Shown here: in pieces, positions 363 to 21,523 of the stretch
Numbering within the stretch: position 1 is the stretch's first letter
How the letters are laid out: each line of letters opens with the position of its first letter
Assembly: GCF_003130705.1 (NCBI RefSeq)
Contig: NZ_CP021354.1
Location: forward strand, 4,650,001 to 4,714,000
Length of the DNA: 64,000 nt
Source of the DNA: Rhodococcus oxybenzonivorans
Lineage (GTDB): Bacteria; Actinomycetota; Actinomycetes; Mycobacteriales; Mycobacteriaceae
Reading direction: 5' to 3'
The notes under the pieces: model-generated
Seen by the model: the letters and a program-made list of their open reading frames with translations, nothing else
The model's database searches: none
Told to the model about the DNA's origin: nothing
Translations under genes and position numbers: made by a program

Positions 363-803
363 CTATGCAGAAACAGCCACTGTGAGCTCTATCTCCACGG
401 GTGCGCCGGACGGCAGGGCGTAGACGCCGATCGCGCTGCGCACCGGCAGCGCGTCGACCCCGAGGCATTCGACCAGCACGTCCGACGCGCCGTCGGCCAC
501 CGCGGACAGCTCACGGAAGTCCGGGGCACACGCGACGAAGACGCTCATGCGCAGGCACCGGGAGATCGCCGCCGTGCCGCCGACGGCCGCGGCTATCGCG
601 GCGATCGCATTCCTCGCCGCCACCCCGGCCGCCTCCCGGGCCCGCGGGATGTCCAGGTCCCGTCCGACGACGCCGGTAACCGTGAGCACTCCGTCGTGGC
701 GTGGCGTCATCCCGGCGCTGTACGCGATCCCGTCGTGCACGACAGCGGGAATGTAGCGGCCCTGCGGCCGTGGGGCGGTGGCGACGGATTCCTGCTCAGA
801 CAC
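363..803 (-). CDS. RidA family (YjgF/YER057c/UK114) enamine/imine deaminase-like protein
   Basis: The 146-residue product has the length and layout of the RidA family, which hydrolyses reactive enamines and imines to ketones and ammonia and often sits in amine or amino-acid catabolic operons. The segment GIAYSAGMTPRHDG near residue 25 and the C-terminal LPVRSAIGVYALPSGAPVE (about residues 118-136) are typical; the arginine in LPVRS is the usual carboxylate-binding position. The GTG start at 803 lies 8 bases inside the upstream gamma-glutamyltransferase gene, so the two are probably translationally coupled. It is the last clear gene of the operon. The substrate is inferred only from context. 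Confidence 0.85.
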   Translation of the reverse strand: MSEQESVATAPRPQGRYIPAVVHDGIAYSAGMTPRHDGVLTVTGVVGRDLDIPRAREAAGVAARNAIAAIAAAVGGTAAISRCLRMSVFVACAPDFRELSAVADGASDVLVECLGVDALPVRSAIGVYALPSGAPVEIELTVAVSA

Positions 804-2397
804 CGAGTGCTATTCCTTCCTGGCGGGGGTCGGCGGCGCCGGACAGCAGGCCGCGCGCTGCGTCGAGGGAGATGATCTGGGCGCTTCCACCGGCGGCCCA
901 CGGACCCTGCAGTGCGACGTCGTGACCCAGGCGCTCCAACTCCGTGCGCACGTCCTCCGGAATGCGGGACTCGCACCGCAGTTCCGCCGGGCGGCCGACC
1001 ACGTCGGCGTCGCTGCCGGGGAAGACCGTGAAGCGGGGTGCCGCGACGGCCTCCGCCGGGTCGAGTCCGTGATCGAGGAGGTGCGAGATCAGTTGCATGT
1101 TCCATTGCACCTGCCCGTCCCCGCCCGGGGTGTTTCCGACGTGCAGGAGATTCCCGGACGTATCGGTGATCACCCACGCGTTCAGGGTGTGCAGCGGTTT
1201 ACGCCGCGGCGCCGCGGCGTTGGGATGCCCCGGGATCAGATAGGCCCCGCGGCCGAATCGGTTGTTCAGCACCACTCCGGTGCCGGGGACGGTCATCTTG
1301 GCGCCGAACGTGAAGGCGAGCGAGTGGATGAAACTGACCGCGCGACCGTCGGAGTCCACCGCGACGGTCGAGGTGGTGTCACCGGCGCTCACGCTGAAGG
1401 CGCCCGACGACGCCCGGCGGCCGTCCAGCCGGTCTCTCGCCGCCCCGATCGCGGCCGGCTCGAGCACGGCCCGCCACCCGTCGTTGCCGGCGCCGCAGGT
1501 CGCGAACCGATCCTCGAAGGCCAGACGGGCTGCTCTCGCCATGCGATCGACGGCCGGAGCGGTGAGCCACGGGGAGAAGCCGACGACGCCGTCGTTCAGC
1601 GCCGCCTGCTGCAGCACCATCCATCCAGGGGTGGGCAGGGGTGTCTGGTGAACGACCGCGCCGGCGTAGTTTCCGCTGATCGCGGCCTCCGGTCGCACGT
1701 CGGCGCCTGCCGCCCACTCGTCCCCGCCGAACGGCGCCCCACCGGCGCAGAGCGCGTCGACCGCCTGCTGAGCGAACGGGCCGGTGTAGAAACTGTGCAC
1801 GTCGCGCGCCAGTGCCTCGATGGTCCGGGCCAGGTCGCGCTGCGGCAGCCGCTCCCCGACCTGCGGCAACCGGCCGTCCGGGAGGTACACCGCACGCAGT
1901 CCGGGGTCGGCGGCGATCGCGGTCTGCGCCTCTCGCACGTCGTCGCGGGTCTTGGCCGAGCAGGGAAGCCCCTTCTCCGCCGCGCGCACCGCCGGTGCCC
2001 AGAGGTCCGTCAGCGACCGGGTGGCGCCACCCGCGTGCAACGCGCCGAGGGCGGCCGGCGCCCCGGGAACCGCCACCGCCAGCGCCCCGTCGAGGGGAAT
2101 CGACCGCAGCCCACGTTCGGTGTAGAAGTCCACGTCACCGCCGTCGGGCCCGAAGCCGCTGCCCCCGACCGTCCACACCGATCCGTCCGGTTCGCGGACG
2201 ACGACGAACGCGTCACCGCCGATTCCGCATTGCCCCGGCAACGTCAGCCAGGTCATCGCGGCCATGGCCACCGTCGCGTCGATGGCGTTGCCTCCGTCGG
2301 CCAGAACGCGGGCACCTACCGTGCTCGCCGCGGGATGACTGGACGAGACCATGCCGTCGGCGGAGAGAGTGGACGGTCGGGGGTTCACTTCATGCAC
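796..2397 (-). CDS. gamma-glutamyltransferase family protein (Ntn hydrolase)
   Basis: The 533-residue protein matches the gamma-glutamyltransferase/acylase family. It has the N-terminal SSSHPAAS and GGNAIDATVA blocks and the GQCGIGGDAF block (about residues 55-64). The sequence DTTSTVAVD, with Thr341 as candidate nucleophile, is where the family cleaves itself into two subunits. There is no signal peptide, unlike classical periplasmic GGT, so it probably acts in the cytoplasm on a gamma-glutamyl or other amide-type compound. The GTG start at 2397 overlaps the 3' end of the upstream Rieske gene by 13 bases and the gene's end overlaps RidA by 8. Whether it hydrolyses or transfers, and on what, cannot be told from sequence. 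Confidence 0.9.
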   Translation of the reverse strand: MHEVNPRPSTLSADGMVSSSHPAASTVGARVLADGGNAIDATVAMAAMTWLTLPGQCGIGGDAFVVVREPDGSVWTVGGSGFGPDGGDVDFYTERGLRSIPLDGALAVAVPGAPAALGALHAGGATRSLTDLWAPAVRAAEKGLPCSAKTRDDVREAQTAIAADPGLRAVYLPDGRLPQVGERLPQRDLARTIEALARDVHSFYTGPFAQQAVDALCAGGAPFGGDEWAAGADVRPEAAISGNYAGAVVHQTPLPTPGWMVLQQAALNDGVVGFSPWLTAPAVDRMARAARLAFEDRFATCGAGNDGWRAVLEPAAIGAARDRLDGRRASSGAFSVSAGDTTSTVAVDSDGRAVSFIHSLAFTFGAKMTVPGTGVVLNNRFGRGAYLIPGHPNAAAPRRKPLHTLNAWVITDTSGNLLHVGNTPGGDGQVQWNMQLISHLLDHGLDPAEAVAAPRFTVFPGSDADVVGRPAELRCESRIPEDVRTELERLGHDVALQGPWAAGGSAQIISLDAARGLLSGAADPRQEGIALGV

Positions 2398-2747
2398 CCC
2401 CGCGCGGCCCGCCGGCGCGGGATGGAACTGGTGTCGTCGGGGTCGATGCCGACGAAGATCTCGCCGTCACGTTCCTCGACCGGGTAGGTCTTGATGGCCA
2501 CAGTCGCCGGTGGGCACACGGGTTCCCCGGTCTCGAGATCGAATACGCTTCCGTGGCAGGAGCATCCGATGCCATCGTCGACGAGTTTCCCGGACGAGAG
2601 CAGGCAGTCCAGATGTGTGCAGTAGTTGGACGTGGCGTAGGCCTTCCCGTTCAGGCGGGCCACGGCGAACTCGTGTTCACCGGCGAAGAAGCGGCGCACG
2701 ATGCCTTCGGAAACCTGTCCGGAGCGCGCAACGCGAGTGAATTCCAT
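2385..2747 (-). CDS. Rieske [2Fe-2S] ferredoxin (second of the operon)
   Basis: The 120-residue protein is a small soluble Rieske ferredoxin. Its cluster ligands are visible as Cys43-x-His45 and Cys62-x2-His65 (CTH and CSCH), separated by the usual 16 residues. Such proteins carry electrons from a ferredoxin reductase to an oxygenase. The ATG at 2747 has a purine-rich GAGGGAGAAG upstream. It lies 29 bases after the aldehyde dehydrogenase gene and overlaps the GGT start. The basic C-terminal tail (IPRRRAARG) is unusual. Having two distinct Rieske proteins and one reductase in one operon suggests either two oxygenation steps or specialised partners. Confidence 0.9.
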   Translation of the reverse strand: MEFTRVARSGQVSEGIVRRFFAGEHEFAVARLNGKAYATSNYCTHLDCLLSSGKLVDDGIGCSCHGSVFDLETGEPVCPPATVAIKTYPVEERDGEIFVGIDPDDTSSIPRRRAARGCMK

Positions 2748-2776
2748 GGTCTTCTCCCTCTGTCGACAGGTAGGTC

Positions 2777-4219
2777 TCAGGCCGAAGGGCTGAGGTAGAC
2801 GGTCTTTTCGGCTTGGTAGAACTGCATCATCGAGTCACCCGCCTGCTCCTTGTGGGTCTGCGTGCTCGAGGCCTTGTATCCGCCGAACGGGGCGTTCATG
2901 CTCATGCCGGTGGTGGGCTGGTTGATCTTCACCAGGCCCGATTCGGAACGGCCCGCGAACGCGAGTGCCTTGGTCACGTCGTTGGTGACGATTCCCGCGC
3001 TGAGCCCGAATTCGGTGTCGTTCGCGAGCGCGACGGCATCGTCGAAGCCGGACGCCCGCAGGAAGACCAGCAGTGGTCCGAACACTTCGTCCGTGACCAC
3101 CCGCATGTCAGGGCTGCCACCGGCGAACACGGTCGGAGCAGCGAAATAGCCGTTCCCCCTGTCGAGACTTGCTCCGCCGCAGACCAGTTCGGCTCCTTCG
3201 TCGCGGCCGATCTGCACGTACTCGAGGAACTTGGCGAGCTGCGCCTTGCTCGCGAGAGCTCCCATGCCCACACCCGGTTCGGCGCCCGGGCCGACGGTGA
3301 TCCCTTCGGCGAGTTCCACCACGCGGTCCAGCAACCGGTCGTGGATCTCGTCCACCGCGATCACCCGGCTGGTGCCCGTGCACGCCTGCCCGGACAATCC
3401 GAAGGCGCCCTTGACGATCAGTGCGGCCGCCTTGTCCACGTCGGCGTCGCCGAGGACCACGACGGGGTTCTTGCCGCCCATCTCGAGCTGGCTGCGGCGA
3501 GACGGACCCACCGCCGCGTGGATCGCACGGCCCACGTGGGTGGAGCCGGTGAACGTCACGGCATCGACGCGCTCGTCCGCCGCGACCGCGCCGCCGGCGC
3601 GACCGGAACCTTGGACCAGGGCGAGGGCACCGGCCGGAAGCCCCCCGGCCAGCAGCGCCTCGACCAGCCGCTGTCCCATCAGCGGGGTGAGTTCGGACGG
3701 TTTGAGCACCACGACATTGCCGGCAGCCAGCGCCGGTCCGAGTTTGCGCGACGGAATGTTGAGCGGGAAGTTCCAGGGGGTGATCGCCCCGACGATTCCG
3801 ACGGGTTCGCGCAGGGTGATGACGAGTCCCTCCCCCGGGGTGGGGTACGTGCTGCCGGTGGTGCGGAGCGCTTCACCGGCGTAGAAGCGCAGGTTCATCG
3901 GTGTGCGACCGACTTCCATGGTCGCCTCGGCCCGGGTCTTGCCCTCCTCGCGGACGAGTTCGTCGACGAGTTCGCCTGCCCGCGCCTCGAGGTGTGCGGC
4001 CGCGGCTTCCAGGATTGCCGCGCGGCGTTCCGGGGGCGTCGCGGCCCACTGCGGTGCCACCTTGGCCAGCGCGCTGACGGCGGCATCCACGTCGGCCTCG
4101 GTCGAATCCGGGAACACGCCGATCACATCGTCGTGGTCGGCGGGGTTGCGCCGCTCGAACGTCGCTCCGGAAGACGACGGAACCCACTGCCCGTCAATGA
4201 GATTGAGTCCCTCGATCAT
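2777..4219 (-). CDS. NAD(P)-dependent aldehyde dehydrogenase
   Basis: The 480-residue enzyme belongs to the ALDH superfamily, which oxidises aldehydes to acids. The key residues are present: Asn150 in TPWNFP, Glu246 in LEMGGKNP and the nucleophile Cys280 in GQACTGTSR. The coenzyme loop FTGSTHVGR lies at about 223-231. The length is normal. It shares an ATGA overlap (4216-4219) with the upstream reductase gene, so the two are translationally coupled. In this operon it most likely oxidises an aldehyde released by the oxygenase step. Semialdehyde dehydrogenases such as the alpha-ketoglutaric semialdehyde type look similar, and the exact substrate is unknown. Confidence 0.93.
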   Translation of the reverse strand: MIEGLNLIDGQWVPSSSGATFERRNPADHDDVIGVFPDSTEADVDAAVSALAKVAPQWAATPPERRAAILEAAAAHLEARAGELVDELVREEGKTRAEATMEVGRTPMNLRFYAGEALRTTGSTYPTPGEGLVITLREPVGIVGAITPWNFPLNIPSRKLGPALAAGNVVVLKPSELTPLMGQRLVEALLAGGLPAGALALVQGSGRAGGAVAADERVDAVTFTGSTHVGRAIHAAVGPSRRSQLEMGGKNPVVVLGDADVDKAAALIVKGAFGLSGQACTGTSRVIAVDEIHDRLLDRVVELAEGITVGPGAEPGVGMGALASKAQLAKFLEYVQIGRDEGAELVCGGASLDRGNGYFAAPTVFAGGSPDMRVVTDEVFGPLLVFLRASGFDDAVALANDTEFGLSAGIVTNDVTKALAFAGRSESGLVKINQPTTGMSMNAPFGGYKASSTQTHKEQAGDSMMQFYQAEKTVYLSPSA

Positions 4220-5454
4220 GACACCGTCACCAATTCCTCGTCGTCGTCCATCAGGTCGAACAGGTCGACGTCCTCGTCCGCCAACCGGGCAGGCGCGATC
4301 GACCGGCCGATCAGTTCTCGGGCCGCGCTGATCTCGTCGCCGCGGTCGAGCGTGAAGGCGCCGCGCACGACACCGCTGTCCAGATAGAAGGCGGTGAACT
4401 CGCCGTCGTCGGCGCTGCCGCGAAACACCAGGTCGGTGTAGCGGGCCGCGCCGGTGAACTGGATGTTCTTGCCGAACTGATCGGACCAGAACCAGTGCGC
4501 GGGGTCCACCACCCCGACGCGTCCGAGCATGAGGTTCGCGGTCGCCGCCCCCTGCTTGCTCGCATTGTCGAAGTGTTCGACGCGAACGTGCCTGCCTGCC
4601 GCGTCGGAGAATCGCGCTGCCACGTCGCCGGCGGCGTAGACGTGTGGAGTCGACGTCCGCCCCTGCGCATCCACGAGGATTCCGCCGTCGACGGCCAGTC
4701 CGGAGGCCTGCGCGACCTCGACGTTGGGGACGATCCCGATGCCCACCACCACGACGTCGGCCGAAATCACCTCTCCGCCCTCGAGGGCGATGAGCACGCC
4801 GTCCGGCCTGGTCGTCACGGTGTCGACCCGGACGCCGCCGCGGACGGTGACTCCGTTCTCCCGTTGCAATCGAGTGCAGACCTCGCCCATCTCGGGTCCG
4901 AGGATTCGAGCGAGTGGCACCTGGTCCGCTTCGAGAACGGTCACCTCGGCGCCCAGGGCTGTTGCAGTGGCGGCAATTTCGAGTCCGACGAACCCTCCGC
5001 CGATCAGCACCAGACCGACGCCGGGACGAAGGTGGGCGGCGAGCCGTTCGGCGTCGTCGATCGTCCTCAGGTAGTGCACCCGTTTGGGCGCAGGCCCGTT
5101 CACCGGCATCGTGCGCGGTCTGCCGCCGGTCGCGATCAGTACTGCGTCAGCCGCGATGCTTCGCCCGTCGGACAATTCGACCGAACCACCGCTCGCGTCG
5201 ATCCGGGTCACCGTCGTGCCGGTGAGGAGCTCGACGTTCTGCTTGTCTCGCCACGCGTCGGGAAGCAGCATCAACGACTCGCGATCCTCCTGCCCGGCAA
5301 GGAATTCCTTGGACAGCGGTGGCCGCTGATACGGCGCGTGCGACTCGTCGCCGACGAGGAGGATCCTGCCGTCGAACCCTCGGCGTCGCAGTGTGCGCGC
5401 CGCGACGGCAGCGGTCTGGCCGGCGCCGATGGTGACGATGGTGTTCAACGTCAT
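4216..5454 (-). CDS. FAD-dependent NAD(P)H:ferredoxin reductase
   Basis: The 412-residue flavoprotein has the two-dinucleotide fold of oxygenase-coupled ferredoxin reductases (BphA4/CamA type). An FAD-binding GAGQTA lies at residues 10-15, an NAD(P)H-binding GGGFVG at 152-157, and the late FAD motif in VYAAGDVA. It should pass electrons from NAD(P)H to one or both Rieske ferredoxins encoded in the same operon. It begins 16 bases downstream of the first Rieske gene and overlaps the aldehyde dehydrogenase gene by 4 bases. The C-terminus is acidic (DEDVDLFDLMDDDEE), which could help docking. Confidence in the class is high; its partner specificity is inferred. Confidence 0.93.
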   Translation of the reverse strand: MTLNTIVTIGAGQTAAVAARTLRRRGFDGRILLVGDESHAPYQRPPLSKEFLAGQEDRESLMLLPDAWRDKQNVELLTGTTVTRIDASGGSVELSDGRSIAADAVLIATGGRPRTMPVNGPAPKRVHYLRTIDDAERLAAHLRPGVGLVLIGGGFVGLEIAATATALGAEVTVLEADQVPLARILGPEMGEVCTRLQRENGVTVRGGVRVDTVTTRPDGVLIALEGGEVISADVVVVGIGIVPNVEVAQASGLAVDGGILVDAQGRTSTPHVYAAGDVAARFSDAAGRHVRVEHFDNASKQGAATANLMLGRVGVVDPAHWFWSDQFGKNIQFTGAARYTDLVFRGSADDGEFTAFYLDSGVVRGAFTLDRGDEISAARELIGRSIAPARLADEDVDLFDLMDDDEELVTVS

Positions 5455-5470
5455 GGGGTCACTCGCTCTC

Positions 5471-5827
5471 TCAGTCGACTTCGGCCGGCGAAGTCGCGGT
5501 CTCGGCGTAATCGGGGCTGCGGGTGAGATCCACGTAGACGACGTCGTCCTCGACCTTCACCGCGTAGGTCGGCTGGCACAGGTCCTGGTCTTCCTCGTAG
5601 CCGGTGTCGAGGTCGAACGCCCACTGGTGGCCTGGGCAGATGACCCGCCCGTGCAGCAGGGTGCCTTTCGCCAGTGACCGATCCTGATGGATGCACAGAT
5701 CACGAAAGGCGTAGATCCGGTCGTCGGCCTGGAACAGGGCGACCGCGGTGTCCCCGACCTCGACGCGAAGTTTCCGGCGGCGGCCGAGCTCACGCACGGT
5801 GACCAGCCGGGTCCAGTTCGTCTCCAT
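5471..5827 (-). CDS. Rieske [2Fe-2S] ferredoxin (first of the operon)
   Basis: The 118-residue protein shows Cys45-x-His47 and Cys64-x2-His67 (CIH and CPGH), the standard Rieske ligand set. The start was placed at the ATG at 5827 because AGGAGA lies just upstream and the family normally begins here; a longer frame reaching 5998 would run through the gap toward the oxygenase gene. It lies between the HDO oxygenase and the reductase, so it is the natural electron carrier between them. The C-terminus after the beta fold is short and acidic. Confidence 0.92.
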   Translation of the reverse strand: METNWTRLVTVRELGRRRKLRVEVGDTAVALFQADDRIYAFRDLCIHQDRSLAKGTLLHGRVICPGHQWAFDLDTGYEEDQDLCQPTYAVKVEDDVVYVDLTRSPDYAETATSPAEVD

Positions 5828-5895
5828 CGTTCTCTCCTGTCGGGCGAGATGCCTGCGTCGGGAGGGGCCCGATGCGGGCCCCTCCCTGCGCACGG

Positions 5896-6615
5896 TCAGG
5901 CGGTCGCGAGCTCGAGGTCGGTTGCCACGTACGTGTCGTAGAGCCCCTTCGTGTACGAGAAGCGCATCTCGGCTCCCCACTGCACGAGTTGCAGGCAACG
6001 CTGCTGCAGCTGCGGGGTATCGGCGTGGTCGAGCACGATCTGGTATCCACGCTCACCGTGCACGACGTCCGACGTGATGTGCAGGTCGAAGAATTCGATC
6101 TCGTCCTCGGTGAACCCGTACACCTCACGCAGAGGAACGATCTGCTTCTTGTAGATGCTCGGTACCTGCGACTCGAGTCCGACGACGAGTGCGGCGGTGG
6201 CCACGACGAAGTGTTCACGCTGCGACACCGCGTAGCACCAGGACTGCAGACCGCGGGTGATCGCGTTCATGTTCGACGGGTCCTCGACGCGTTCCTTCGT
6301 GGTGCCGCACGCCTCGGCGAACTTGATGAGGAGGTCGGTGTGCCGGATGTCGGCCAATTCCTCCTCGTACATGTTCTGGAGGGTGAAATCCTTTGCATTG
6401 GTGAAGGTGTCGGGGGTATTCGAGTAGATGTTCGCAAGGTAGTCGGCGAAGGGGCCGACGTAGTGGTAGTGGTTCTCCGCCCACCGCGCGAAATGGTGCT
6501 TCTCGAGCTTGCCCTCGGCCCACGCCTTGCTGAAAGACGCGTTCTTCGCCTCGCGGCCCTTGATGGCGTTCTCCAGAGCTGCGCGGAAATCGTCCCTGCC
6601 TAGAAGTTCGGTCAT
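5896..6615 (-). CDS. haem-oxygenase-like diiron oxidase/oxygenase (HDO; TenA/PqqC/CADD fold)
   Basis: The 239-residue helical protein resembles the PqqC/CADD branch of the haem-oxygenase-like superfamily, whose diiron members oxidise amines, amino acids or fatty acids with O2. A complete ligand set is visible with CADD-like spacing: Glu85 and His92 (E-x6-H in EEELADIRH), Glu148 (VGLES), and His179, Asp183, His186 (HITSDVVH). The ATG at 6615 was chosen because the family N-terminus begins here. A frame extending to 7119 overlaps the next gene. Its neighbours supply a complete NAD(P)H-reductase-Rieske electron chain, so I infer it is the oxygenase of the operon. The substrate is unknown. Confidence 0.85.
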   Translation of the reverse strand: MTELLGRDDFRAALENAIKGREAKNASFSKAWAEGKLEKHHFARWAENHYHYVGPFADYLANIYSNTPDTFTNAKDFTLQNMYEEELADIRHTDLLIKFAEACGTTKERVEDPSNMNAITRGLQSWCYAVSQREHFVVATAALVVGLESQVPSIYKKQIVPLREVYGFTEDEIEFFDLHITSDVVHGERGYQIVLDHADTPQLQQRCLQLVQWGAEMRFSYTKGLYDTYVATDLELATA

Positions 6616-6767
6616 GATGTGCCTCGTCTTCCTCGAGTATGAGATTGGTTGGGGATGCTCCGACTGGAGTGAATTCGACGTTATCGACTCGCGGTCTACC
6701 CGACCACGGTCGAAGTGACTGCGTTGGAACGGTTTCGATGTGCACGTTGTCGGCACATCGTGGACGT

Positions 6768-7214
6768 TCAGCTGGGTACTGCGGCGAGGGCTTCGAACTC
6801 GGCCAGCATCGCAGCTCCAACCGCCTTGTCCTGCTTGCCGTTTCCGCCGCTGATGCCGACGCCGCCGACGATCTGTCCGTCGAAGACGAGGGGGAATCCG
6901 CCGACGAACACCGCGAACTTGCCCGGCAGCATCTGGCTGATGCCGAATGCCTCGTTCCCGGGCAACGCGGGACCGTCGGGAGCCTCGTTGAACAGGTGCG
7001 TTGCCCGCTCGTGGCCGGCGGCGGTGAACGCTTTCGCGATCGCGATGTCGACGCCGGTGAGGCGCGCTCCGGGCAGTCGGTGCAGGGCCAGCACGTTGCC
7101 GCCGTCGTCGCAGACGCACAGGGTCTGCTTGACGCCGATTTCCTCGGCCTTCGCGCGTCCCGCGGCGAGCAGTGGAAGTGCGTCGTCGAGGGTGATTCGG
7201 TGAACCTGATGCAT
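6768..7214 (-). CDS. GlcG/HbpS family protein (DUF336), first gene of the operon
   Basis: The 148-residue protein is a typical GlcG/HbpS (haem-degrading/binding family, DUF336) protein, with the VCDDGGNVLALHRLPGA block near residues 33-49 and the glycine-rich GGFPLVFDGQIVGGVGISGG near 109-128. Members bind haem or cofactors, or accompany catabolic operons without a defined reaction. The ATG at 7214 has GGAG seven bases upstream and gives the family's usual length. It is the promoter-proximal gene, divergent from the PucR regulator, with a 152-base gap before the HDO gene. There is no signal peptide, so it is cytoplasmic. A link to metal or cofactor handling for the HDO is conjecture. Confidence 0.85.
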   Translation of the reverse strand: MHQVHRITLDDALPLLAAGRAKAEEIGVKQTLCVCDDGGNVLALHRLPGARLTGVDIAIAKAFTAAGHERATHLFNEAPDGPALPGNEAFGISQMLPGKFAVFVGGFPLVFDGQIVGGVGISGGNGKQDKAVGAAMLAEFEALAAVPS

Positions 7215-7392
7215 TGTCTTCTCCGTTGCGTATTCGGGAGGAAGTGATGCACCGATTTCTATCACCGTCATCGCCGGTGGAACCATGGTCAAACTATCCG
7301 GCAATCTCGGCGAAATCAGGGCATAGTGCATAGGCAGTGCGGGTGTGCGCTCCGCCATACTGCACTTTTCGACTACCCGAGGAGGGTCCGCA
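7215..7392. promoter_or_regulatory. divergent promoter region between the HDO operon and its PucR regulator
   Basis: This 178-base gap separates the GlcG/HbpS gene and the pucR-type gene, which point away from each other. It must hold both promoters. A short inverted repeat, CACCG then CGGTG with a 7-base spacer at 7263-7279, is the only obvious dyad. The ribosome-binding site for the regulator (GAGGAGGG, about 7379-7386) lies at its right end. No confident -10 or -35 element was picked. Confidence 0.5.
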
Positions 7393-9084
7393 GTGGACGA
7401 CACCACGACACCGGCCGCAGAGGACGAGCGACTGTCGTTACGCGGCCTGCTGGAAGAGCCCCTGCTCGCGTCGGCCCGGCTGCTGTCCGGCACGGACGCC
7501 CTGAGCGGTCCGGTGACGTGGTGCCTGCCGTGGGGTGAGGTGATGAGCAGGCCCGATTCCCTCGCCGAGGTCGCTGTGTACACCCGACCGGAAACCCTGT
7601 CCTCGCACGGACGTGAACTCGAATCACTGGTGGCGCGGGGAGCCGGGGTCCTTCTCGTCGACGGGTCGGCGCCCGCGGGCACGGCCTGGCCGACCGGACT
7701 CACGGTCGTGGAGCTGGGTTTTCCCGTCGGGTTCACCGCACTCAACCGGCTCCTCGCCGAGCGCGCTCTCACCCAGGAAGCACACGTGATGCGCTATGCC
7801 GTCACCGTGCACCAGTCGCTTGCGGGATTGCTGCACCGCGGCGCGGGCCTGCCGATGCTGATCCGCGAGGTCGCGACGCTGACCTCGGACGTCGCAGTCG
7901 CCTTGGACGTCCGCGGACGCCTCCTCGCGCACGCCGGCCTCCCGGACGTCGAGGACGCGGGCACCGGCGCCCTGCTGGAGGCTCTCGCGGACGCCCTGCC
8001 GCGCCTCGAGGAATCACCACCGGCACGGATGCACAACGTTCACGTATTCCGCCTGGAGCATCCGGAGGGACTGTTCGCGCCCACGACGGCAGTCGCCGGG
8101 GCCATGCAACTCGCCGGCCGCTACGAGGGCTGGATCGTGGTCGTCGACCCCGGGGCGAACCCTCGCAGACACGACATCGCACAGCACCGGGTGGTCGTCG
8201 AACAGGCCGGAACGATCATCGGCACCGAGATGCTCCGGCAGCGGAGCGTGGACGAGGCCGAGGAGCGGGCGCGCGGAGACTTCGTCCAGGCCCTCGTGCA
8301 CGGCAACTTCGCCAACGACCACGACCTGCGTACCCGGGCCGCGCTGCACGAGATCGATCTGGACCTGCACTACATCGTGTTCGTCGCTCCCGGTCTCGTC
8401 GACCGGGCGTCGGGACGGCCCGGCGCGAGCATGGTCCGGCTGGCACGGTACGCCGCCGGCGTCCTGCCGCGTCTGGGCGTACGTTCACACGTCACCGTCA
8501 TCGGCGACGTGCTCGTGGTGATCCGATCGTTGAGCTCCGTCGACACGCCGGGTGTCGAATCCGAGATCAGCGAGTACGCGCACGCCATGTCGCTCGATCT
8601 CGAAACCCGTTTGGGTCAGCGGATTCCGGTGGCCCACGGACGTCCCGCGGCGGGCGCCCGCGATATCGGCGAGAGCTACCGCGAGGCCCGCATCACCCTG
8701 GGCATCGCCCAGCGGCTCGGACTGTCCGGTTCGGTGGCCTACAACGACCTGCGCGGGTTCAGTGTGCTCGCCCGCGCCACCGACACCGACGAGAGCCGAC
8801 GGCTCATCCGTGACGTCCTGGGTCCCCTTCGGGCGTCGAGTTCGCATGCCGACACCGAGGAGTTGCTGTTCGCCTACCTCGAGGAGGGCGGCAACATCAA
8901 CGCCGCCGCACGGCGCCTCCGGATCCACCGGAACACGATGATCGCCAAGCTCGACCGCACGTCACGGCTCATCGGAATGGACATCCGGGAACCCGAGAAC
9001 CAGTTCACGCTGTGGCTGGCTCTCCGTCTCGATCTGCTCTCCCAGGTGCAGGACACCGTCAACCACGAGATCGTGACCCGCTAG
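7393..9084 (+). CDS. PucR/CdaR-type helix-turn-helix transcriptional regulator
   Basis: The 563-residue regulator has the PucR layout. There is an N-terminal sensory region, a central GGDEF-like region (about 300-430), and a C-terminal HTH in EEGGNINAAARRLRIHRNTM near residues 500-520. PucR proteins activate operons for nitrogen-rich or aromatic compounds. The GTG at 7393 follows GAGGAGGG at ideal spacing; an upstream GTG at 7345 is possible but lacks a site. The gene is divergent from the HDO operon and so is its likely activator. It ends 3 bases from the end of the convergent MFS gene. Confidence 0.88.
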   Translation: MDDTTTPAAEDERLSLRGLLEEPLLASARLLSGTDALSGPVTWCLPWGEVMSRPDSLAEVAVYTRPETLSSHGRELESLVARGAGVLLVDGSAPAGTAWPTGLTVVELGFPVGFTALNRLLAERALTQEAHVMRYAVTVHQSLAGLLHRGAGLPMLIREVATLTSDVAVALDVRGRLLAHAGLPDVEDAGTGALLEALADALPRLEESPPARMHNVHVFRLEHPEGLFAPTTAVAGAMQLAGRYEGWIVVVDPGANPRRHDIAQHRVVVEQAGTIIGTEMLRQRSVDEAEERARGDFVQALVHGNFANDHDLRTRAALHEIDLDLHYIVFVAPGLVDRASGRPGASMVRLARYAAGVLPRLGVRSHVTVIGDVLVVIRSLSSVDTPGVESEISEYAHAMSLDLETRLGQRIPVAHGRPAAGARDIGESYREARITLGIAQRLGLSGSVAYNDLRGFSVLARATDTDESRRLIRDVLGPLRASSSHADTEELLFAYLEEGGNINAAARRLRIHRNTMIAKLDRTSRLIGMDIREPENQFTLWLALRLDLLSQVQDTVNHEIVTR

Positions 9085-9087
9085 CCC

Positions 9088-10485
9088 TCAGCCGGCCACC
9101 GGGTTCTTGCCGGCGAACGTCCCGGCCAATCCGGCGAGCACGACGAGGGCCGCCACGGCGAACAGCAGTCCGTACGGATCGGCCGCCAGGTGCGCGGCCA
9201 CGCCCACCCAGGCGGCGCCCACGGCCGAGCCACCGAAGCGGATGAGGTTGAACAGTCCCAGGCCGGTTCCGACGGCCCCGGCTGGCGATCGGGTCGAACC
9301 GGCCGCGGCGGGAGTCTGGACCATGCCGATCCCCACTCCGGCGCCGACGAGCACGGCGCCGACGGCGATCGGGTTCCGGACGTCCGCGGACAACGTGATC
9401 GCCAGGGCCACTTGACTACTGACCAACACCGCCAGACCGGTTCGCATCACCACCCGGGCCCCGATCCTGTCGACGAGACGCCCGACGACCGGCGCCACGC
9501 ACGTCATGACGACCGGCAGCACGAAGAGCATCAGCCCCGCCTGTGTGGTCGAACTTCCCGAGCCCGTCAGGTAGAGCGGAAGCGCGAGCAGCAGGGCCCC
9601 CAGCGCGAACATCTGGGTGAACGCAGCGAGCGCACTGCGCAGGAACCGCGATTCGATCACCAGGTCGATGGGCACGAACGGGTTCGCCGCCCGCCGGCAA
9701 TGGAGCACGAACCCGGCCGTGACGACGACGCCGCCGCCGATGGTCGTGATGCTGACCCAGGCGGGCACCTGCTCCATCGAGACGGTCGTGAGGCCGAGGA
9801 TCAGCAGGACCGCGCCGAGCGTGACGGTGGACGCTCCGATCACGTCGAGTCGCATCTTCTTGCCGGGGTAGCGCGGGATGTAGCGGAGGGTCGCGGCGTA
9901 CCCGATCAGGGCGACCGGCACCAGTGGCACGAACGCCCACCGCCAGCCCCACCAGTCGCTGACGATTCCGCCCATGGACGGGCCCACGGCCTGCCCGATC
10001 CCGTTCACCGCAGCCCAGGCACCGACGGCACGCGCCCGCCGTGCGGGCCCGAACAGCCACGCGATCAGGCCCATGACCGCGGGCGCGAACGCGGCCGCGG
10101 CGATCCCGCCGAGCGACCGCCACAGCACGAGCACGGGCAGGGACGGTGCGAGCGCCGCACCGAGCGAACAGGCCGCGGTTCCCAATAGGGCGGCGCAATA
10201 CACGCGCCTGCGCCCGAACCGGTCGCCGACCCACCCGGCCAGCGGCATCGTCGCCGCGAAGGTGAGGAGGAATCCGACGACGACGAAGATGCCGCTGCCG
10301 AGACCGACGTCGAAGTCGGTGAGGATCGCGTTCAACGGGACGTTGACAATGTTGTTGCTGACCGTGCCGACGAACGTTCCGGCGAGCAGCGCCGCCAGCG
10401 CGGGCGACGTGCCGGGTCCGCGTTCGTCACCCGCGGTTGCACTCTGAGCCTGACCGACCGCCGTGTTCATAGAGTCCACTTTCAT
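9088..10485 (-). CDS. MFS transporter, DHA2 (EmrB/QacA)-like
   Basis: The 465-residue membrane protein has multiple hydrophobic helices and the MFS signature GDRFGRRR between helices 2 and 3 (about residues 85-92). Helix 5 carries a GQAVGPSMGG antiporter-type motif near 165-174, which marks drug/proton-type exporters. It may export an intermediate or toxic product of the neighbouring pathway, or a chelator. The start is either M1 at 10485 or the ATG at 10470; neither has a strong Shine-Dalgarno. An IdeR-like palindrome lies about 72 bases upstream, so iron regulation is possible. It converges on the PucR gene with only 3 bases between. Confidence 0.87.
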   Translation of the reverse strand: MKVDSMNTAVGQAQSATAGDERGPGTSPALAALLAGTFVGTVSNNIVNVPLNAILTDFDVGLGSGIFVVVGFLLTFAATMPLAGWVGDRFGRRRVYCAALLGTAACSLGAALAPSLPVLVLWRSLGGIAAAAFAPAVMGLIAWLFGPARRARAVGAWAAVNGIGQAVGPSMGGIVSDWWGWRWAFVPLVPVALIGYAATLRYIPRYPGKKMRLDVIGASTVTLGAVLLILGLTTVSMEQVPAWVSITTIGGGVVVTAGFVLHCRRAANPFVPIDLVIESRFLRSALAAFTQMFALGALLLALPLYLTGSGSSTTQAGLMLFVLPVVMTCVAPVVGRLVDRIGARVVMRTGLAVLVSSQVALAITLSADVRNPIAVGAVLVGAGVGIGMVQTPAAAGSTRSPAGAVGTGLGLFNLIRFGGSAVGAAWVGVAAHLAADPYGLLFAVAALVVLAGLAGTFAGKNPVAG

Positions 10486-10784: not shown

Positions 10785-12359
10785 GTGGATGTAAGTCTCA
10801 CCGCCGCACATTGGGTGTATCTCGGAGGAATCATCGTCATCCTCGGGACGATGCTCATGCGGAAGAACATCGTCGTCCCCGCCGTCATCGGCACGTTCCT
10901 GACCGCCTTCGTGTTCTCCGACAGCCTCGTCACCGGTCTCGCGTCGATTTTCAATGCGAGCCTCGTCGCCGCCCGCGAGCTGTTCAACATCTTCCTCATC
11001 ATCTCGTTGGTGACGGCGATGCTCGGCGCACTCCGGCAGATGGGGGCCGACCGGTTGATGGTCGCCCCGTTCCGGCGCGTCATGCGCGGCGGCACCAGCA
11101 GCTTCATCGTCCTCGCTGTCGTCACCTACACGATCTCGCTGTTCTTCTGGCCCACTCCTGCGGTTCCGTTGATCGGAGCCGTCCTCATCCCCGTCGCCAT
11201 CCGCGCCGGCCTTCCCCCGATGGCGGTCGGCATGGCGATCGCCATCTGCGGGCAGGGCATGGCGCTGTCGTCCGACTACATCATCAAGGTGGCGCCGGGA
11301 CTGTCGGCGAAGTCGGCGGGAGTCGATCCGGACGTCGTCGCGGACCGCGCCCTGGTGATGTCCCTGATAGTCGGTCTCACCGCACTCCTCATCGCCTACT
11401 TCACGCAGCGCAGGCACATGCGCCGCCCCGCACCGGAACTGCTCACCGACTGGGAGGCACGCGCGGAGAGCGACTTCGGCAAGCCCGGCGGCGACGCCCC
11501 CGGCGGCGGCGCGACCCCCACCGGCGGCGCCGCGATCGGTCGCACACCGGCCGAAGCGGCGACGAGTGCCGCTCCCCCGACGTCGACGGCGGTCCTCGCC
11601 GAACCCGTCACGGCCTCCGCCCGGCAGGTCATCGACGACACGTTCCAGAGCATCCGCGCCGCAAAAACTTTTGCAATCCTCGTGCCCACCGCGTATCTGG
11701 CGTTCATCGTCTACCTCATGGTCGGCAAGTTCACCGACCTGGTGCCCGACCTCAAGGGCGGCGACGCGGCGGCGATGGTCGGCGGCATCGCCGCGCTCAT
11801 CCTGTTCGCCGCGGCCGCGACCAACGACAAGAAGGGCTTCCTCGAGACGACGTCCGAGCACCTGATCGACGGTCTGGTCTTCGCGTTCAAGGCCATGGGC
11901 ATCGTGATCCCGATCGCCGGATTCTTCTTCATCGGCAACGGTGACTTCTCCGCCGCCATTCTGGGGCTTCCTGCGGACGCGACCGGCCCGACGCTGCTCT
12001 TCGACCTGGTGAACGCCGCGCAGTCCCACCTGCCGCAGAACGCGTTCGTCACGTCATTCGGCATCCTCGCCATCGGAATGATCGCGGGCCTCGAGGGTTC
12101 CGGGTTCACCGGGCTGCCGCTCACCGGGTCGCTCGCGGGCGCGCTCGGTCCTGCCGTCGGGATGGATCCCGCAACTCTGGCGGCGATCGGTCAAATGGGG
12201 AACATCTGGTCCGGCGGTGGCACGTTCGTCGCCTGGTCGTCGTTGATCGCGGTTGCCGGCTTCGCCCGTGTTCCGGTCCTCGAACTCGCCAGGAAGTGTT
12301 TCGTGCCCGTGGTGTCCGGCCTGGTGCTGTCCACCGCGTTGTCCGTGCTCATCTTCTGA
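10785..12359 (+). CDS. ion-transporter-superfamily permease (GntP/CitM/NhaC-like), substrate unknown
   Basis: The 524-residue integral membrane protein has about a dozen hydrophobic segments in two halves. The halves are separated by a long hydrophilic linker rich in Gly, Pro, Ala and Thr (about residues 220-285). Repeated membrane motifs such as FFWPTPAVPLIGAVLIPVA and, in the second half, GLEGSGFTGLPLTGSLAG resemble organic-anion or ion permeases of the IT superfamily. The GTG at 10785 follows GAAGGGG. The palindrome at 10743-10759 probably controls it. It converges on a LysR gene across a hairpin. A carboxylate substrate is the best guess, not a firm call. Confidence 0.75.
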   Translation: MDVSLTAAHWVYLGGIIVILGTMLMRKNIVVPAVIGTFLTAFVFSDSLVTGLASIFNASLVAARELFNIFLIISLVTAMLGALRQMGADRLMVAPFRRVMRGGTSSFIVLAVVTYTISLFFWPTPAVPLIGAVLIPVAIRAGLPPMAVGMAIAICGQGMALSSDYIIKVAPGLSAKSAGVDPDVVADRALVMSLIVGLTALLIAYFTQRRHMRRPAPELLTDWEARAESDFGKPGGDAPGGGATPTGGAAIGRTPAEAATSAAPPTSTAVLAEPVTASARQVIDDTFQSIRAAKTFAILVPTAYLAFIVYLMVGKFTDLVPDLKGGDAAAMVGGIAALILFAAAATNDKKGFLETTSEHLIDGLVFAFKAMGIVIPIAGFFFIGNGDFSAAILGLPADATGPTLLFDLVNAAQSHLPQNAFVTSFGILAIGMIAGLEGSGFTGLPLTGSLAGALGPAVGMDPATLAAIGQMGNIWSGGGTFVAWSSLIAVAGFARVPVLELARKCFVPVVSGLVLSTALSVLIF

Positions 12360-17003: not shown

Positions 17004-18185
17004 CTACGCCGTTCTTGGCAGGGTCGTGCCGGCATGCGCCTGCGTCCGCAGCGCCTCGAGATTCTGTCGCATCTGGGGTCGCATGTCTCGATGCTGCGGG
17101 AGCAGACGTGAATAGAGCGCGAGCAGTGGGCGGTACGGCAGTCGGTCGATCCGGTACGAATGCGTCACCCGCGTTCTGTCGCCGTCCGCTCTGAAGGTGT
17201 AGGTCCAGGTTGTCGAGTCGTGGTACAGCGGGTTGCGACGCTCCGAGACCGTATGGAACTCGAACGTCCTACCCGGGTCGGCGACGGTCACCTCGCACAG
17301 CCGCGACCAGCGCAGGTGATGGGCGCGGTTGTGCCCCCGGAATCGGGCGCCCACGGATCCCGGTGACCGTCCCGGCAACCATGCGCAGCGTCGGCACTCG
17401 GGGCTGCGTTCGTCGATGCGCGTGACGTCGGCGACCGCGTCGTACAGCTGTCGGGCCGGGGCGTCGATCCACAGTTCCACCGAGCCCTCGGTGCGAGGTG
17501 GCCGGTGGAGACGGGGGCTGACGTCGAGATGAGCGCCCCACCGGGCGGCGCACGCCCGCCGATAGGGTCGCGCGAACGTATGGAGCAAGATGAACCGAGT
17601 GACGGGACCGACTTTACGGACGGCGACGTCGTAATCCTCGCGATCGACACCGTCGACGATCCAGTGAGCTTCGGTTCCCAACTCCCGCTTGGTTTTCGAG
17701 GCTATGAAGACGCGCTGCTCCACCTCGTCCCATTGCCGACCGGTCAGGGTCCGGGCGACGACCGGCATCATCTCGTCCTCTTCACGCTGCAGATGCGACA
17801 GGAGAACGTGCTCCAGAATGGTAAGGGAATGTAGAAGGTCCTGTCGGGCAGCGGAATCGGCACGATATTCGATTGCCGCGGCGGTGACCCGCTCGATCTC
17901 TGGGCCGATCCGAGCATGGTCGGCGTCCATCACGTCGAGGAGTGCTCCGGCGGCCGGGTTCAACTGACGGACGAGAGGCCATAGGGCATCGTCCTCGCCG
18001 CTGTGGTGCAGGTGAAGGAAATGCATCATCCACGCGAGGTGGTCGGCGAGGGCGACCCGCTGGGCCGATGTGGGCGCAGGGGCAGCGCCCAGCACCTGTA
18101 TCGCGCGAGCAAGATCGCGGCGTAGCGCGTTGTGCACGATGCGCATGATCCGGGTGTCGGCGTGGGGCAGAGTGTCGGTTGTCAT
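17004..18185 (-). CDS. hemerythrin (HHE) - SRPBCC fusion protein
   Basis: The 393-residue protein joins two domains. The first (about 1-150) is an HHE hemerythrin bundle with likely iron ligands His18, His61, Glu64, His90, His131 and Glu135. The second (about 235-385) is an SRPBCC/polyketide-cyclase-like cavity domain starting at VELWIDAPARQLYDAVADVTRIDE. Hemerythrin domains sense or bind oxygen, NO or iron, and SRPBCC domains bind hydrophobic ligands. The ATG at 18185 follows TGGAGT. It begins 30 bases after a TetR gene on the same strand, so the pair is probably one transcript and may be self-regulated. Confidence 0.85.
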   Translation of the reverse strand: MTTDTLPHADTRIMRIVHNALRRDLARAIQVLGAAPAPTSAQRVALADHLAWMMHFLHLHHSGEDDALWPLVRQLNPAAGALLDVMDADHARIGPEIERVTAAAIEYRADSAARQDLLHSLTILEHVLLSHLQREEDEMMPVVARTLTGRQWDEVEQRVFIASKTKRELGTEAHWIVDGVDREDYDVAVRKVGPVTRFILLHTFARPYRRACAARWGAHLDVSPRLHRPPRTEGSVELWIDAPARQLYDAVADVTRIDERSPECRRCAWLPGRSPGSVGARFRGHNRAHHLRWSRLCEVTVADPGRTFEFHTVSERRNPLYHDSTTWTYTFRADGDRTRVTHSYRIDRLPYRPLLALYSRLLPQHRDMRPQMRQNLEALRTQAHAGTTLPRTA

Positions 18186-18215
18186 TGACGGACTCCAGAT
18201 AAGGCGCACGAGAAT

Positions 18216-18972: not shown

Positions 18973-19899
18973 TCAGACGGATGGAGCGGTGGCCATGCGA
19001 TCGGCGGCGCCGCGTAGTGCGCGTGAGATCGCGTACATGGCGGGGGTGTACTGGCGGCGGGCGAGAGAGGCGATGTAGATGACGCGCGTCGGCACGCGGT
19101 CCTGCTTACGAAACGTCACCGTCCGGACGTCCGGCCGGTGGTAGGCCACGGCGAGCCTCGGAACCATGGCGATTCCGACGCCGGCGGCGACCATCGCTTC
19201 GATCTCCTGGTAGTCGTGGGCTTCGTAGACGACGTCGGGTTCGAATCCGGCTGCGCGGCAACTACGGAGAAGAACCTCCCCTGCCGGATGGTCGTTGCTT
19301 CGGATGATCCAGCGAGCATCGCGAAGATCCGGTAGCGCGATCTCGTCGTCGCTCCGATGGTCGATGGGAAGCAACAGGACCGTCTCGTCCTCCATCAACG
19401 ATTCAAGCGACAGCGACCGCTCGGCTTCCTCAGTCCACGAGTAGGACCACAGCAACGCCAGATCCACCTCGCTCGAGTGCAGCATGTCGAGAAGTTGCGG
19501 GCGTACCGCCGAACGCACCCGCACGTCGACTTCAGGCCACCGTGAGTGATACTCCTTCAGCGCGTCAGAGAGCAGCGACGCGCTGACAGTAGGGAAAGAA
19601 CCGAGCCGCACGGACCCGCGCTGCAGGCCCCGGATCGCTTCGAGATCGCCGCTCGCGGCGCGCATCTCGCGTCGGAACAGGCGTGCGCGGCTGGTCAGGA
19701 CTTCACCGGCCTCGGTGAGCTGGACCCCACGGGGCAGCCGGGTGAGCACCGGCTGCTTGATGCTGTGTTCGAGCTTGGCGATGCGCTGCGACGCAGCCGA
19801 AGGGGTCATCCGAGCGCGCTCGGCACCGGCAGTCAACGAACCCGCTTCCGCAATGTCGAGCAACAGGAACAGCGTGACGACGTCGAATGAGTGCTGCAT
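18973..19899 (-). CDS. LysR family transcriptional regulator
   Basis: The 308-residue protein shows the LysR HTH (FLLLDIAEAGSLTAGAERAR, then TPSAASQRIAKLE) at residues 11-44 and a LysR effector domain. It is divergent from the MatC-like carrier at 20039, with a 139-base gap. That gap contains a spaced inverted repeat (CCGACTT near 19907, AAGTCGG near 19956) that could be part of its operator. It probably responds to the di- or tricarboxylate handled by the next two genes. Confidence 0.9.
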   Translation of the reverse strand: MQHSFDVVTLFLLLDIAEAGSLTAGAERARMTPSAASQRIAKLEHSIKQPVLTRLPRGVQLTEAGEVLTSRARLFRREMRAASGDLEAIRGLQRGSVRLGSFPTVSASLLSDALKEYHSRWPEVDVRVRSAVRPQLLDMLHSSEVDLALLWSYSWTEEAERSLSLESLMEDETVLLLPIDHRSDDEIALPDLRDARWIIRSNDHPAGEVLLRSCRAAGFEPDVVYEAHDYQEIEAMVAAGVGIAMVPRLAVAYHRPDVRTVTFRKQDRVPTRVIYIASLARRQYTPAMYAISRALRGAADRMATAPSV

Positions 19900-20038
19900 T
19901 CGACCTCCCGACTTCAGTTGAGCTAAAGGTATCAGTAGCGAAACCGTATTGCCCTTAAGTCGGTGCCGTCAATAGTGTGATGTGGACGACGTTCAAGCGC
20001 TGAATGTGACCTTCTGCCCACGCCTGGAAAGCTCTCTT

Positions 20039-21424
20039 ATGACCTCCATCGAGATCCTCCCGCTCATCGCGCTCGTTGCGATGTTCGCGATCGCCACCTT
20101 CTTTCCGATCAACATCGGCATTCTCGGCTTCATCGGCGCTTTCGTCGTCGGCTATTTCGCTCTTGGGTACGACGACAAGGAAATTCTCACCGCGTTTCCG
20201 AGTTCGATCGTGCTCACCATCGTCGGAGTGACCTACTTCTTCGGCATGGCCAAGCGCAACGGCACCATCGACCTGCTGGTCAACAGCTGCATTCGTGCGG
20301 TGAACGGACGGGTCACGGTCGTTCCCTGGGTGTTCTTCTTCACCGCATCCGTGCTCACCGCACTGGGAACATTCAGTCCCGCCGCCGTCGCCCTGATCAT
20401 CCCTGCCGCGATGGCGTTCGCCGCCCGCACTCACATGAGCTCACTGGTCATGGGCATCATGGTCATCAATGGGGCCCACGCCGGCGCCTTCTCGCCGATC
20501 TCCGTCTCCGGTGTCCTGGTCCGAGACATCGTCGAGTCGAACGGCCTCTCGATCGCCCCGTGGACGTTGTTCTTCTCCAGTTACGGCATCAACCTGCTGC
20601 TCTCGGTACTGACAGTGGTCGGCTACGCCGCGCTCGCCCGCACCCGAGGACTGGAGTTCTCCGCGACCGGATCGACTGATGCCGCGCCCCTCGGCGGTTC
20701 ACGTGACGGCGCGCCGCACCGGACCACACTGCCCACGGGCGGCAGCAGCAGCAGCTCCGGAGCGCCGGGCACGCGGGTACTCACGCGGCCGGTCTCGACC
20801 ACCCTCATCGATGCACCCGCACCCGTTACCCGCGCCCAAAAGCTGACGCTGTTCCTCATTGGCGCCCTGCTGGTGCTGGTCCTGGTCCTGCATCTGCCGA
20901 TCAGCTTCATAGCCATCGCGGCGGGAGCTGTCCTGGCGTTCACCGATCTGAAGAAGCAGAACGACGCGATCGCGGACATCAGCTGGTCGACGGTCCTCCT
21001 CGTGGCGGGCATGGTCACCTATATCTCCATCCTGCAAGAGGTGGGCACCATCGACCACCTGGCAGAGATGGCCATCACCATCGGCGCACCGCTCATCGTC
21101 GCGTTCGTGCTCTGCTACGTCATCGGCGTCACCTCCGCCTTCGCATCCTCCACCGCACTGCTAGCCGCGGTGATTCCGCTCGCCATGCCGCTGCTGGGAA
21201 CGGGAGCGCTACCAGTGGTCGGTGTCGTCGCCGCTCTCGCCATCTCCGCCACCGTCGTCGACGTGTCCCCGTTCTCGACGAACGGCGCCCTCGTTCTCGC
21301 CAATGCCCAGAACATCGAGCGGCCGCGCTTCTACCGTCAGCTGCTGCTCAACGCAGGCATCGTCGTCGCCGTAGCCCCGGCGCTGTGCTGGCTGATCCTG
21401 GTCGTCGTGCCGGAACTGCTCTGA
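20039..21424 (+). CDS. MatC-like/SLC13-type dicarboxylate carrier
   Basis: The 461-residue membrane protein begins with the MatC-type N-terminus (IEILPLIALVAMFAIATFFP, then INIGILGFIGAFVVGYFALG). It has the two-half organisation of the dicarboxylate carrier and IT superfamily, with SAFASSTALLAAVIPLAMPL and a late DVSPFSTNGAL motif. A long Ser/Gly/Thr-rich hydrophilic linker lies in the middle (about residues 205-270). The ATG at 20039 follows GGAAAG; an earlier ATG at 19982 in the same frame would reach into the regulatory gap. With PrpF downstream, uptake of a di- or tricarboxylate is likely. Confidence 0.82.
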   Translation: MTSIEILPLIALVAMFAIATFFPINIGILGFIGAFVVGYFALGYDDKEILTAFPSSIVLTIVGVTYFFGMAKRNGTIDLLVNSCIRAVNGRVTVVPWVFFFTASVLTALGTFSPAAVALIIPAAMAFAARTHMSSLVMGIMVINGAHAGAFSPISVSGVLVRDIVESNGLSIAPWTLFFSSYGINLLLSVLTVVGYAALARTRGLEFSATGSTDAAPLGGSRDGAPHRTTLPTGGSSSSSGAPGTRVLTRPVSTTLIDAPAPVTRAQKLTLFLIGALLVLVLVLHLPISFIAIAAGAVLAFTDLKKQNDAIADISWSTVLLVAGMVTYISILQEVGTIDHLAEMAITIGAPLIVAFVLCYVIGVTSAFASSTALLAAVIPLAMPLLGTGALPVVGVVAALAISATVVDVSPFSTNGALVLANAQNIERPRFYRQLLLNAGIVVAVAPALCWLILVVVPELL

Positions 21425-21523
21425 CTCTTAAGCCGCACTGAACGACCACGACAGATTTCTCTATTGTGCTTGAACCTCGCGGACCACAGCCTGGAAGCAC
21501 AGATACGATCGAAAGGCCACCCG

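Follow-up and report, generated by a model that had tools for sequence, protein, structure and literature searches.

A predicted haem-oxygenase-like dimetal oxygenase encoded with a candidate Rieske electron chain of its own in an operon of Rhodococcus oxybenzonivorans

About a dozen haem-oxygenase-like dimetal oxygenases (HDOs) have been characterised, and these serve natural-product and cofactor biosynthesis, according to the accessible part of a review of March 2026 (PMC13108848). The same part of the review states that the HDOs studied work without a protein effector, and it describes MboA, whose alkene-to-alkyne step depends on MboB as a redox partner. Here we analyze an HDO gene of Rhodococcus oxybenzonivorans that lies in a 64,000-nucleotide stretch of contig NZ_CP021354.1 (positions 4,650,001 to 4,714,000, hereafter the window) and is accompanied by genes for two Rieske ferredoxins and a ferredoxin reductase. 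On balance we favor the reading that the HDO is the terminal component of a four-component, NADH-driven oxygenase that heads a catabolic pathway for a nitrogen compound. The original prediction had held that known HDOs mostly work without a dedicated chain. This point is fair, with MboA and MboB as the one precedent in the available part of the review (PMC13108848). Our literature search found no paper that could be connected with this operon or with an HDO served by a Rieske chain, which is weak evidence of absence since few subscription papers were covered. Homarine, riboflavin (PMC12746152, accessible in part) and dipicolinate were considered, and no link to the operon was found in the literature covered.

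The operon spans window positions 363-7214 on the minus strand and is read from 7214 to 363. It comprises eight genes, in the following order:

6768-7214, minus strand: HbpS/GlcG-like protein of 148 amino acids, the first gene of the operon (Pfam HbpS-like, 3.9e-32)
5896-6615, minus strand: haem-oxygenase-like dimetal oxygenase (HDO) of 239 amino acids, with three histidine and three carboxylate ligands
5471-5827, minus strand: Rieske ferredoxin 1 of 118 amino acids (Pfam Rieske)
4216-5454, minus strand: FAD/NAD ferredoxin reductase of 412 amino acids with a Reductase_C domain (Pfam Pyr_redox_2, 4.1e-68; Reductase_C, 1.3e-19)
2777-4219, minus strand: aldehyde dehydrogenase (ALDH) of 480 amino acids (Pfam Aldedh)
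2385-2747, minus strand: Rieske ferredoxin 2 of 120 amino acids (Pfam Rieske, 7.5e-18)
796-2397, minus strand: Ntn hydrolase of 533 amino acids with the gamma-glutamyltransferase (GGT) fold, candidate nucleophile Thr341
363-803, minus strand: Rid-family (Rid1-like) putative imine/enamine deaminase of 146 amino acids, with Arg122 and Glu137

All genes that had been named beside the HDO were thus found on the minus strand; the HbpS-like gene, which lies within the same span, had been left out of the title of the original prediction. Overlaps join GGT-fold and Rid genes (8 bp), Rieske-2 and GGT-fold genes (13 bp), and ALDH and reductase genes (4 bp). The HbpS-HDO and HDO-Rieske-1 junctions have gaps of 152 and 68 bp, and the remaining junctions are likewise gapped. 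Promoter and terminator patterns did not exceed chance, and the RNA family search returned none. In the Pfam analysis, none of the eight genes encodes a Rieske terminal oxygenase, that is, an alpha subunit that carries a catalytic domain as well as a Rieske domain.

The six proposed iron ligands of the HDO are Glu85, His92, Glu148, His179, Asp183 and His186. We aligned the protein with relatives from 13 of the 80 HDO loci described below, all 273 database proteins, three proteobacterial plasmid loci (L124-L126) and the window, which gave 290 rows: 134 nearest to the actinobacterial query (window included) and 156 nearest to proteobacterial queries. The HDO of a deep actinobacterial locus (L127) was aligned and placed in neither group, and for most of the database rows no organism is given. 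Five of the ligands are kept in 290/290 rows and His179 in 289/290, the exception being a single proline. The six residues align with the E/H/E/H/D/H set of CADD, which we take to be the CADD metal ligands. The predicted structure (pLDDT 95.8) has a haem-oxygenase-like fold of seven helices; a prediction made without an alignment reached pLDDT 37.7 and was discarded. CADD is the best match of the model (Foldseek pdb_via), 4-aminobenzoate synthases are also the closest solved sequences, and the best Z scores per enzyme range from 19.9 to 25.6 for UndA, HrmI, FlcD, BesC, PolF and other HDOs, with which the window protein would share its fold. By predicted fold and aligned ligands, then, the protein is a predicted member of the HDO superfamily. 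The ligand and fold assignments made earlier are supported, and the comparison with thiaminase/TenA-type members that lack iron ligands, a point on which they were open to refutation, did not refute them.

Since 4-aminobenzoate synthases are its nearest solved relatives in both sequence and fold, the HDO might be a self-sacrificing enzyme of the CADD type that makes 4-aminobenzoate for folate. In CADD (CtCADD, NePabS), Tyr27 and Lys152 are sacrificed, and the window HDO has Ser and Gln at these positions. Tyr27, Tyr141 and Lys152 are replaced by Ser29, Leu147 and Gln158 in 32/32 rows of the HDO family, whereas Tyr/Tyr/Lys is retained in 16/18 distant CADD-like control rows (18 of 28 distant loci; the other 10 had no match or no complete frame). 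The protein also scores 93.9 bits against the NCBIfam CADD model, below its cut-off of 200. We therefore rejected this identity, to which we attach almost no weight. A further difference from CADD is the setting of the gene in an operon of catabolic type that includes an electron chain. An identity as PqqC fails too (41.9 bits against an NCBIfam equivalog cut-off of 240). A tree of the HDOs hints that the Rieske-type loci fall on one side of a branch (support 86/92); this tree is rough, with an unsettled bootstrap, very long branches to its four CADD-like rows and one of these (L109) wrongly translated.

The electron chain stays with the HDO in related loci. Of 508 places in the genome collection that encode HDO relatives, we kept the best 80 (81-100% identical), and 76 of these are testable for more distant neighbors, having more than 3 kb of downstream sequence. 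Rieske-1 lies directly downstream of the HDO in all 80 loci, HDO, Rieske-1 and reductase genes are contiguous in 76/76 testable loci, and Rieske-2 occurs within 4.5 kb of the HDO in 75/76, the sole miss (L024) being a stretch that stops near the expected Rieske-2 start. The order HDO-Rieske-1-reductase persists although the remaining cluster is rearranged between families. No Rieske or reductase match was obtained (tblastn, 1e-4) in 28 short loci around distant HDO homologues (at most 32% identical); these control loci reach about 1.5 kb per side or less, and in 7 of them the HDO itself was missed at the same threshold. The contrast between 80/80 and 0/28 argues that the pairing of HDO and Rieske-1 is not due to chance. 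For residue comparisons of the partner proteins, copies less than 75% alignable were dropped, which left, window included, 67 rows for the GGT-fold protein, 75 for each Rieske ferredoxin, 74 for ALDH, 68 for Rid and 77 for the reductase. The CxH...CxxH motif is intact in 75/75 copies of each ferredoxin. The retention of the chain and of the gene content among relatives agrees with the earlier account of the operon, and conservation in relatives, the point on which that account was open to refutation, did not refute it.

A second type of electron supply was found in Proteobacteria. Six plasmid-collection records from Cupriavidus and Caballeronia encode an HDO at 66-71% identity; three were examined (L124-L126), two of which are unannotated and had their genes called by script. 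In these three loci the HDO occurs together with ALDH, HbpS and the transporter family described below, and the electron-transfer genes beside it encode plant-type 2Fe-2S ferredoxins together with a reductase closest to BenC/MmoC (scanned in L124). The clusters also encode a protein of the ornithine-cyclodeaminase (OCD) family, annotated in L125 and scanned in L124, and the Cupriavidus copy is nearest to a pyrroline/piperideine-2-carboxylate reductase with a score below the curated cut-off. The Rid and GGT-fold proteins of the window have no matches in the three loci. Database proteins of the proteobacterial HDO type bear the names of Achromobacter, Bordetella, Paraburkholderia, Hydrogenophaga, Billgrantia and Aminobacter among the matches listed. 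Beside or between the plant-type ferredoxins lies a gene for a small protein of 106-116 amino acids (L124:10403-10720, L125:13078-13428); the Cupriavidus copy has no Pfam match, and the protein is possibly a further oxygenase component. The Caballeronia plasmid also carries genes for the alpha and beta subunits of a Rieske ring-hydroxylating dioxygenase (L125:2204-3995), about 10 kb from the HDO cluster.

The deep actinobacterial locus L127, with an HDO 76% identical to that of the window, also encodes a plant-type ferredoxin, a Rieske protein, OCD, HbpS and ALDH, along with Rid-like (26% identity) and GGT-like (30% identity) genes. No recognised reductase or transporter was found within its 19.9 kb. 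In a scan of a partial stretch of 272 amino acids, the pyrroline-2-carboxylate reductase family tied with the general OCD family for the OCD protein of this locus, below cut-off. That the carrier type varies beside a nearly fixed HDO is an argument that the HDO depends on a partner for reducing power.

The chain might instead serve another oxygenase elsewhere, with the HDO merely co-regulated and using O2 without its electrons. This would agree with the absence of protein effectors among the HDOs studied so far, as given in the accessible review text (PMC13108848). Against it stand the contiguity of HDO, Rieske-1 and reductase in every testable locus, an operon with no terminal Rieske oxygenase of its own, and proteobacterial relatives that place another ferredoxin and reductase set beside the same HDO; we consider this alternative quite improbable. 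In the four-component oxygenase that we favor, electrons would be drawn from NADH by the FAD reductase and handed on by one or both Rieske ferredoxins to the diiron (or Fe/Mn) site of the HDO, which would activate O2 and oxygenate a small, imported, nitrogen-containing substrate. Such a system would resemble the soluble diiron monooxygenases (sMMO type), which likewise combine a diiron terminal oxygenase with electron-transfer proteins, and the Cupriavidus reductase is similar to BenC/MmoC. The enzymes of that type have a ferritin-like fold, according to the part of the review at hand (PMC13108848), and the fold predicted here is that of haem oxygenase.

The remaining enzymes of the operon bear on the nature of the substrate. 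The GGT-fold protein keeps Thr341-Thr342 in 67/67 copies. The positions of Arg114, Asp433, Ser462 and Ser463, which we take to be the gamma-glutamyl-binding residues by E. coli GGT numbering, are occupied by Ser80 (66/67 copies, one gap), Arg383 (67/67), His403 (63 copies; Asn in 4) and Thr404 (67/67), respectively. With the binding residues missing, a gamma-glutamyl substrate is unlikely, and the gamma-glutamyltransferase function assigned by the original prediction is not supported: the protein would be a putative amidohydrolase. It scores 223.9 bits against TIGR00066, below the cut-off of 357.85, and its best solved match is 2i3o; 5hft, which we take to be HpxW, is matched more weakly. It shares the GGT fold with homologues of the Ta0994 and HpxW types and, as in 2i3o, the threonine is kept and Arg114 is absent. 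A gamma-glutamyl amine pathway of the theanine or polyamine type was set back on the same grounds.

The Rid protein has PA0814, classed as Rid1 in the accessible text of PMC5619798, as its best solved relative. Its Arg122, which matches RidA Arg105, is found in 68/68 copies and Glu137 in 67/68; the arginine is tied to imine hydrolysis in the available parts of PMC4433059 and PMC5619798. Judged by these residues, the protein is Rid1-like with the catalytic arginine kept. The ALDH retains Cys280 and Glu246 in 74/74 copies. The window enzyme scores 506.8 bits against NF052305 (NCBIfam), below the cut-off of 750, and the Cupriavidus enzyme 565.5 bits against an alpha-ketoglutaric semialdehyde dehydrogenase-type cut-off of 770. 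The 2,5-dioxovalerate/alpha-ketoglutarate semialdehyde dehydrogenases score best for these two and for one ALDH from a Streptomyces locus, in all cases below cut-off.

The earlier order of steps, oxygenation followed by imine hydrolysis and aldehyde oxidation, is reasonable as a prediction. In the pathway that we favor, the GGT-fold Ntn hydrolase would cut an amide, a role perhaps taken elsewhere by an amidase or alpha/beta hydrolase, the Rid1 protein would turn an enamine or imine into a carbonyl, and the ALDH would oxidise a semialdehyde that perhaps resembles 2-oxoglutarate semialdehyde. HbpS stands outside the proposed scheme. The proposed steps follow the same order as those of the Rut pyrimidine pathway, which has an oxygenase, an amidohydrolase, a Rid enamine deaminase (RutC) and an aldehyde enzyme. 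RutA is a flavin monooxygenase, and the operon is built on another oxygenase type; among the NCBIfam matches listed, no Rut equivalog was reached by a gene of the operon. A cluster of amidase-type genes occurs in 10/80 HDO loci (two members scanned).

One alternative, along the lines of the original prediction, has amines or amino acids as the substrate class: the HDO would oxidise the C-N bond or the C-H bond next to nitrogen, Rid would hydrolyse the imine and ALDH would oxidise the aldehyde. Characterised HDOs mostly use amino or fatty acids (PMC13108848) and Rid1 proteins hydrolyse amino-acid imines (PMC5619798), as stated in the accessible portions of these papers, and OCD-family partners occur in Cupriavidus and L127. 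However, the loss of the gamma-glutamyl-binding residues makes a gamma-glutamylated amine unlikely, and a simple amine would need no amide hydrolase. We hold amine catabolism to be an unlikely account of the operon.

The other alternative is a specific form of our own reading, in which the HDO hydroxylates or cleaves the ring of a pyridine- or pyrrole-type carboxylate. Cleavage of such an N-heteroaromatic ring would leave an amide, an enamine and an aldehyde, to be converted into carboxylic acids by the GGT-fold hydrolase, Rid and ALDH, and an amide hydrolase, an enamine deaminase and a semialdehyde dehydrogenase do occur together here. The best-scoring ALDH families, the nearest relative of the Cupriavidus OCD and the tie for that of L127 point the same way. 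So does an isochorismatase-like hydrolase nearest to RutB (120.7 bits against a cut-off of 378; L128:5789-6421), which sits 2.6-3.2 kb left of the window start. Dipicolinate is a candidate substrate: 3-hydroxydipicolinate and 2-oxoglutarate were reportedly formed from it in Achromobacter, according to old reports, and a dip cluster is said to exist in Alcaligenes faecalis. On the other side, every ALDH and OCD score lies under its curated cut-off, the literature search turned up no link of HDOs to dipicolinate or pyridines, and no Alcaligenes name appears among the HDO database matches listed. The enzymes would suit a carboxylate of this type, for example dipicolinate, an idea that draws on sub-cut-off similarities; ring opening as such is, in our estimate, rather unlikely.

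Three genes flank the operon:

7345-9084, plus strand: PucR/CdaR-type regulator of 579 amino acids, divergent from the operon (Pfam HTH_30, GGDEF_2)
9088-10485, minus strand: MFS transporter, DHA2/EmrB-like (library matches)
10785-12359, plus strand: membrane transporter-like protein of 524 amino acids, for which 'GntP-like' is a working label only

PucR would control the gene set. The 524-residue protein matched no Pfam or NCBIfam family and had no PDB sequence match of any meaning, and it belongs to a family of membrane proteins of 504-581 amino acids that are encoded along with the HDO in both phyla. Its homologues in Cupriavidus and Caballeronia are 46-50% identical to the window copy (e.g. 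L124:11118-12653), and a second copy, 49% identical, is found 1.0-2.5 kb beyond the left end of the window, where it adjoins the gene of the RutB-nearest hydrolase. This unclassified transporter is likely the importer that would bring the substrate in. The original interpretation was incomplete in that it missed this transporter, HbpS and the proteobacterial version with its other chain.

The HDOs of R. opacus ATCC 51881 and R. wratislaviensis are about 99-100% identical to that of the window (highest exact value 99.6%). The 80 HDO loci cover at least ten families (family names are known for 21 of them), e.g. Nocardiaceae, Mycobacteriaceae, Streptomycetaceae, Geodermatophilaceae and Nocardioidaceae. 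In 62 full-length loci of 20 kb, homologues were detected for ALDH (61), the GGT-fold protein (57), Rid (60), HbpS (60), PucR (61), MFS (57) and the transporter (62); these matches may fall anywhere in the 20 kb, and some of those for ALDH, PucR and MFS are only 33-46% identical. Median identity across loci is highest for the HDO (91%), followed by HbpS (88%) and Rieske-2 (79%), and lower for Rieske-1 (64%), Rid (58%) and the reductase (56%).

The occurrence of the operon is patchy. Among 61 related genomes, 14 match the HDO, 13 with orthologues (91-100% identical) and one weakly (22%), and all 13 orthologues are confined to one genus, in which they are present in 13 of 28 genomes. The transporter is present in exactly these 13 genomes, and the GGT-fold gene in the same 13 plus one more (G012). 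The additional genome holds a relic (L129:3298-6992) in which a LysR gene abuts a 3' fragment of Rieske-2 (residues 83-118), followed by an intact GGT-fold gene; no match to HDO, Rieske-1, reductase, ALDH, HbpS, PucR, MFS, transporter or Rid was found in the 12-kb stretch. The relic is flanked by BASS and LysR neighbors. When 396 genomes were drawn evenly from the phylum, 61 gave some HDO match, with orthologues only in the own genome (100%) and in G091 (76%), that is, in one of the 395 others; the HDO identity in the other 59 is at most 32%.

Elsewhere in the window, several giant overlapping reading frames resembling nonribosomal peptide synthetases (4393, 1230, 2861 and 1327 amino acids) occupy positions 35205-62023, and a long frame of this kind becomes low in complexity near its end, as if frameshifted or misassembled. 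A hemerythrin HHE domain and a polyketide-cyclase-like domain are joined in one frame at 17004-18209. A LysR regulator, a MatC/CitMHS carrier and a PrpF protein at 18973-22660 form a small separate locus of dicarboxylate type.

In its widest form, our proposal would be that one isofunctional HDO family of Actinomycetota and Pseudomonadota forms the terminal part of a multicomponent oxygenase, that its electron supply switched between Rieske/Reductase_C modules and modules of plant-type ferredoxin with a BenC-like reductase, and that it opens the ring of an N-heteroaromatic compound in a catabolic route not described before and patchily distributed over the two phyla. We offer this extended version tentatively and regard it as doubtful in its entirety. 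An HDO with a dedicated and exchangeable chain would add to the superfamily a multicomponent branch comparable to the soluble diiron monooxygenases. If the reading is true, HDOs would be shown able to run NADH-driven oxygenations, and the operon would point to a catabolic route that burkholderia-type bacteria share with actinobacteria from at least ten families.

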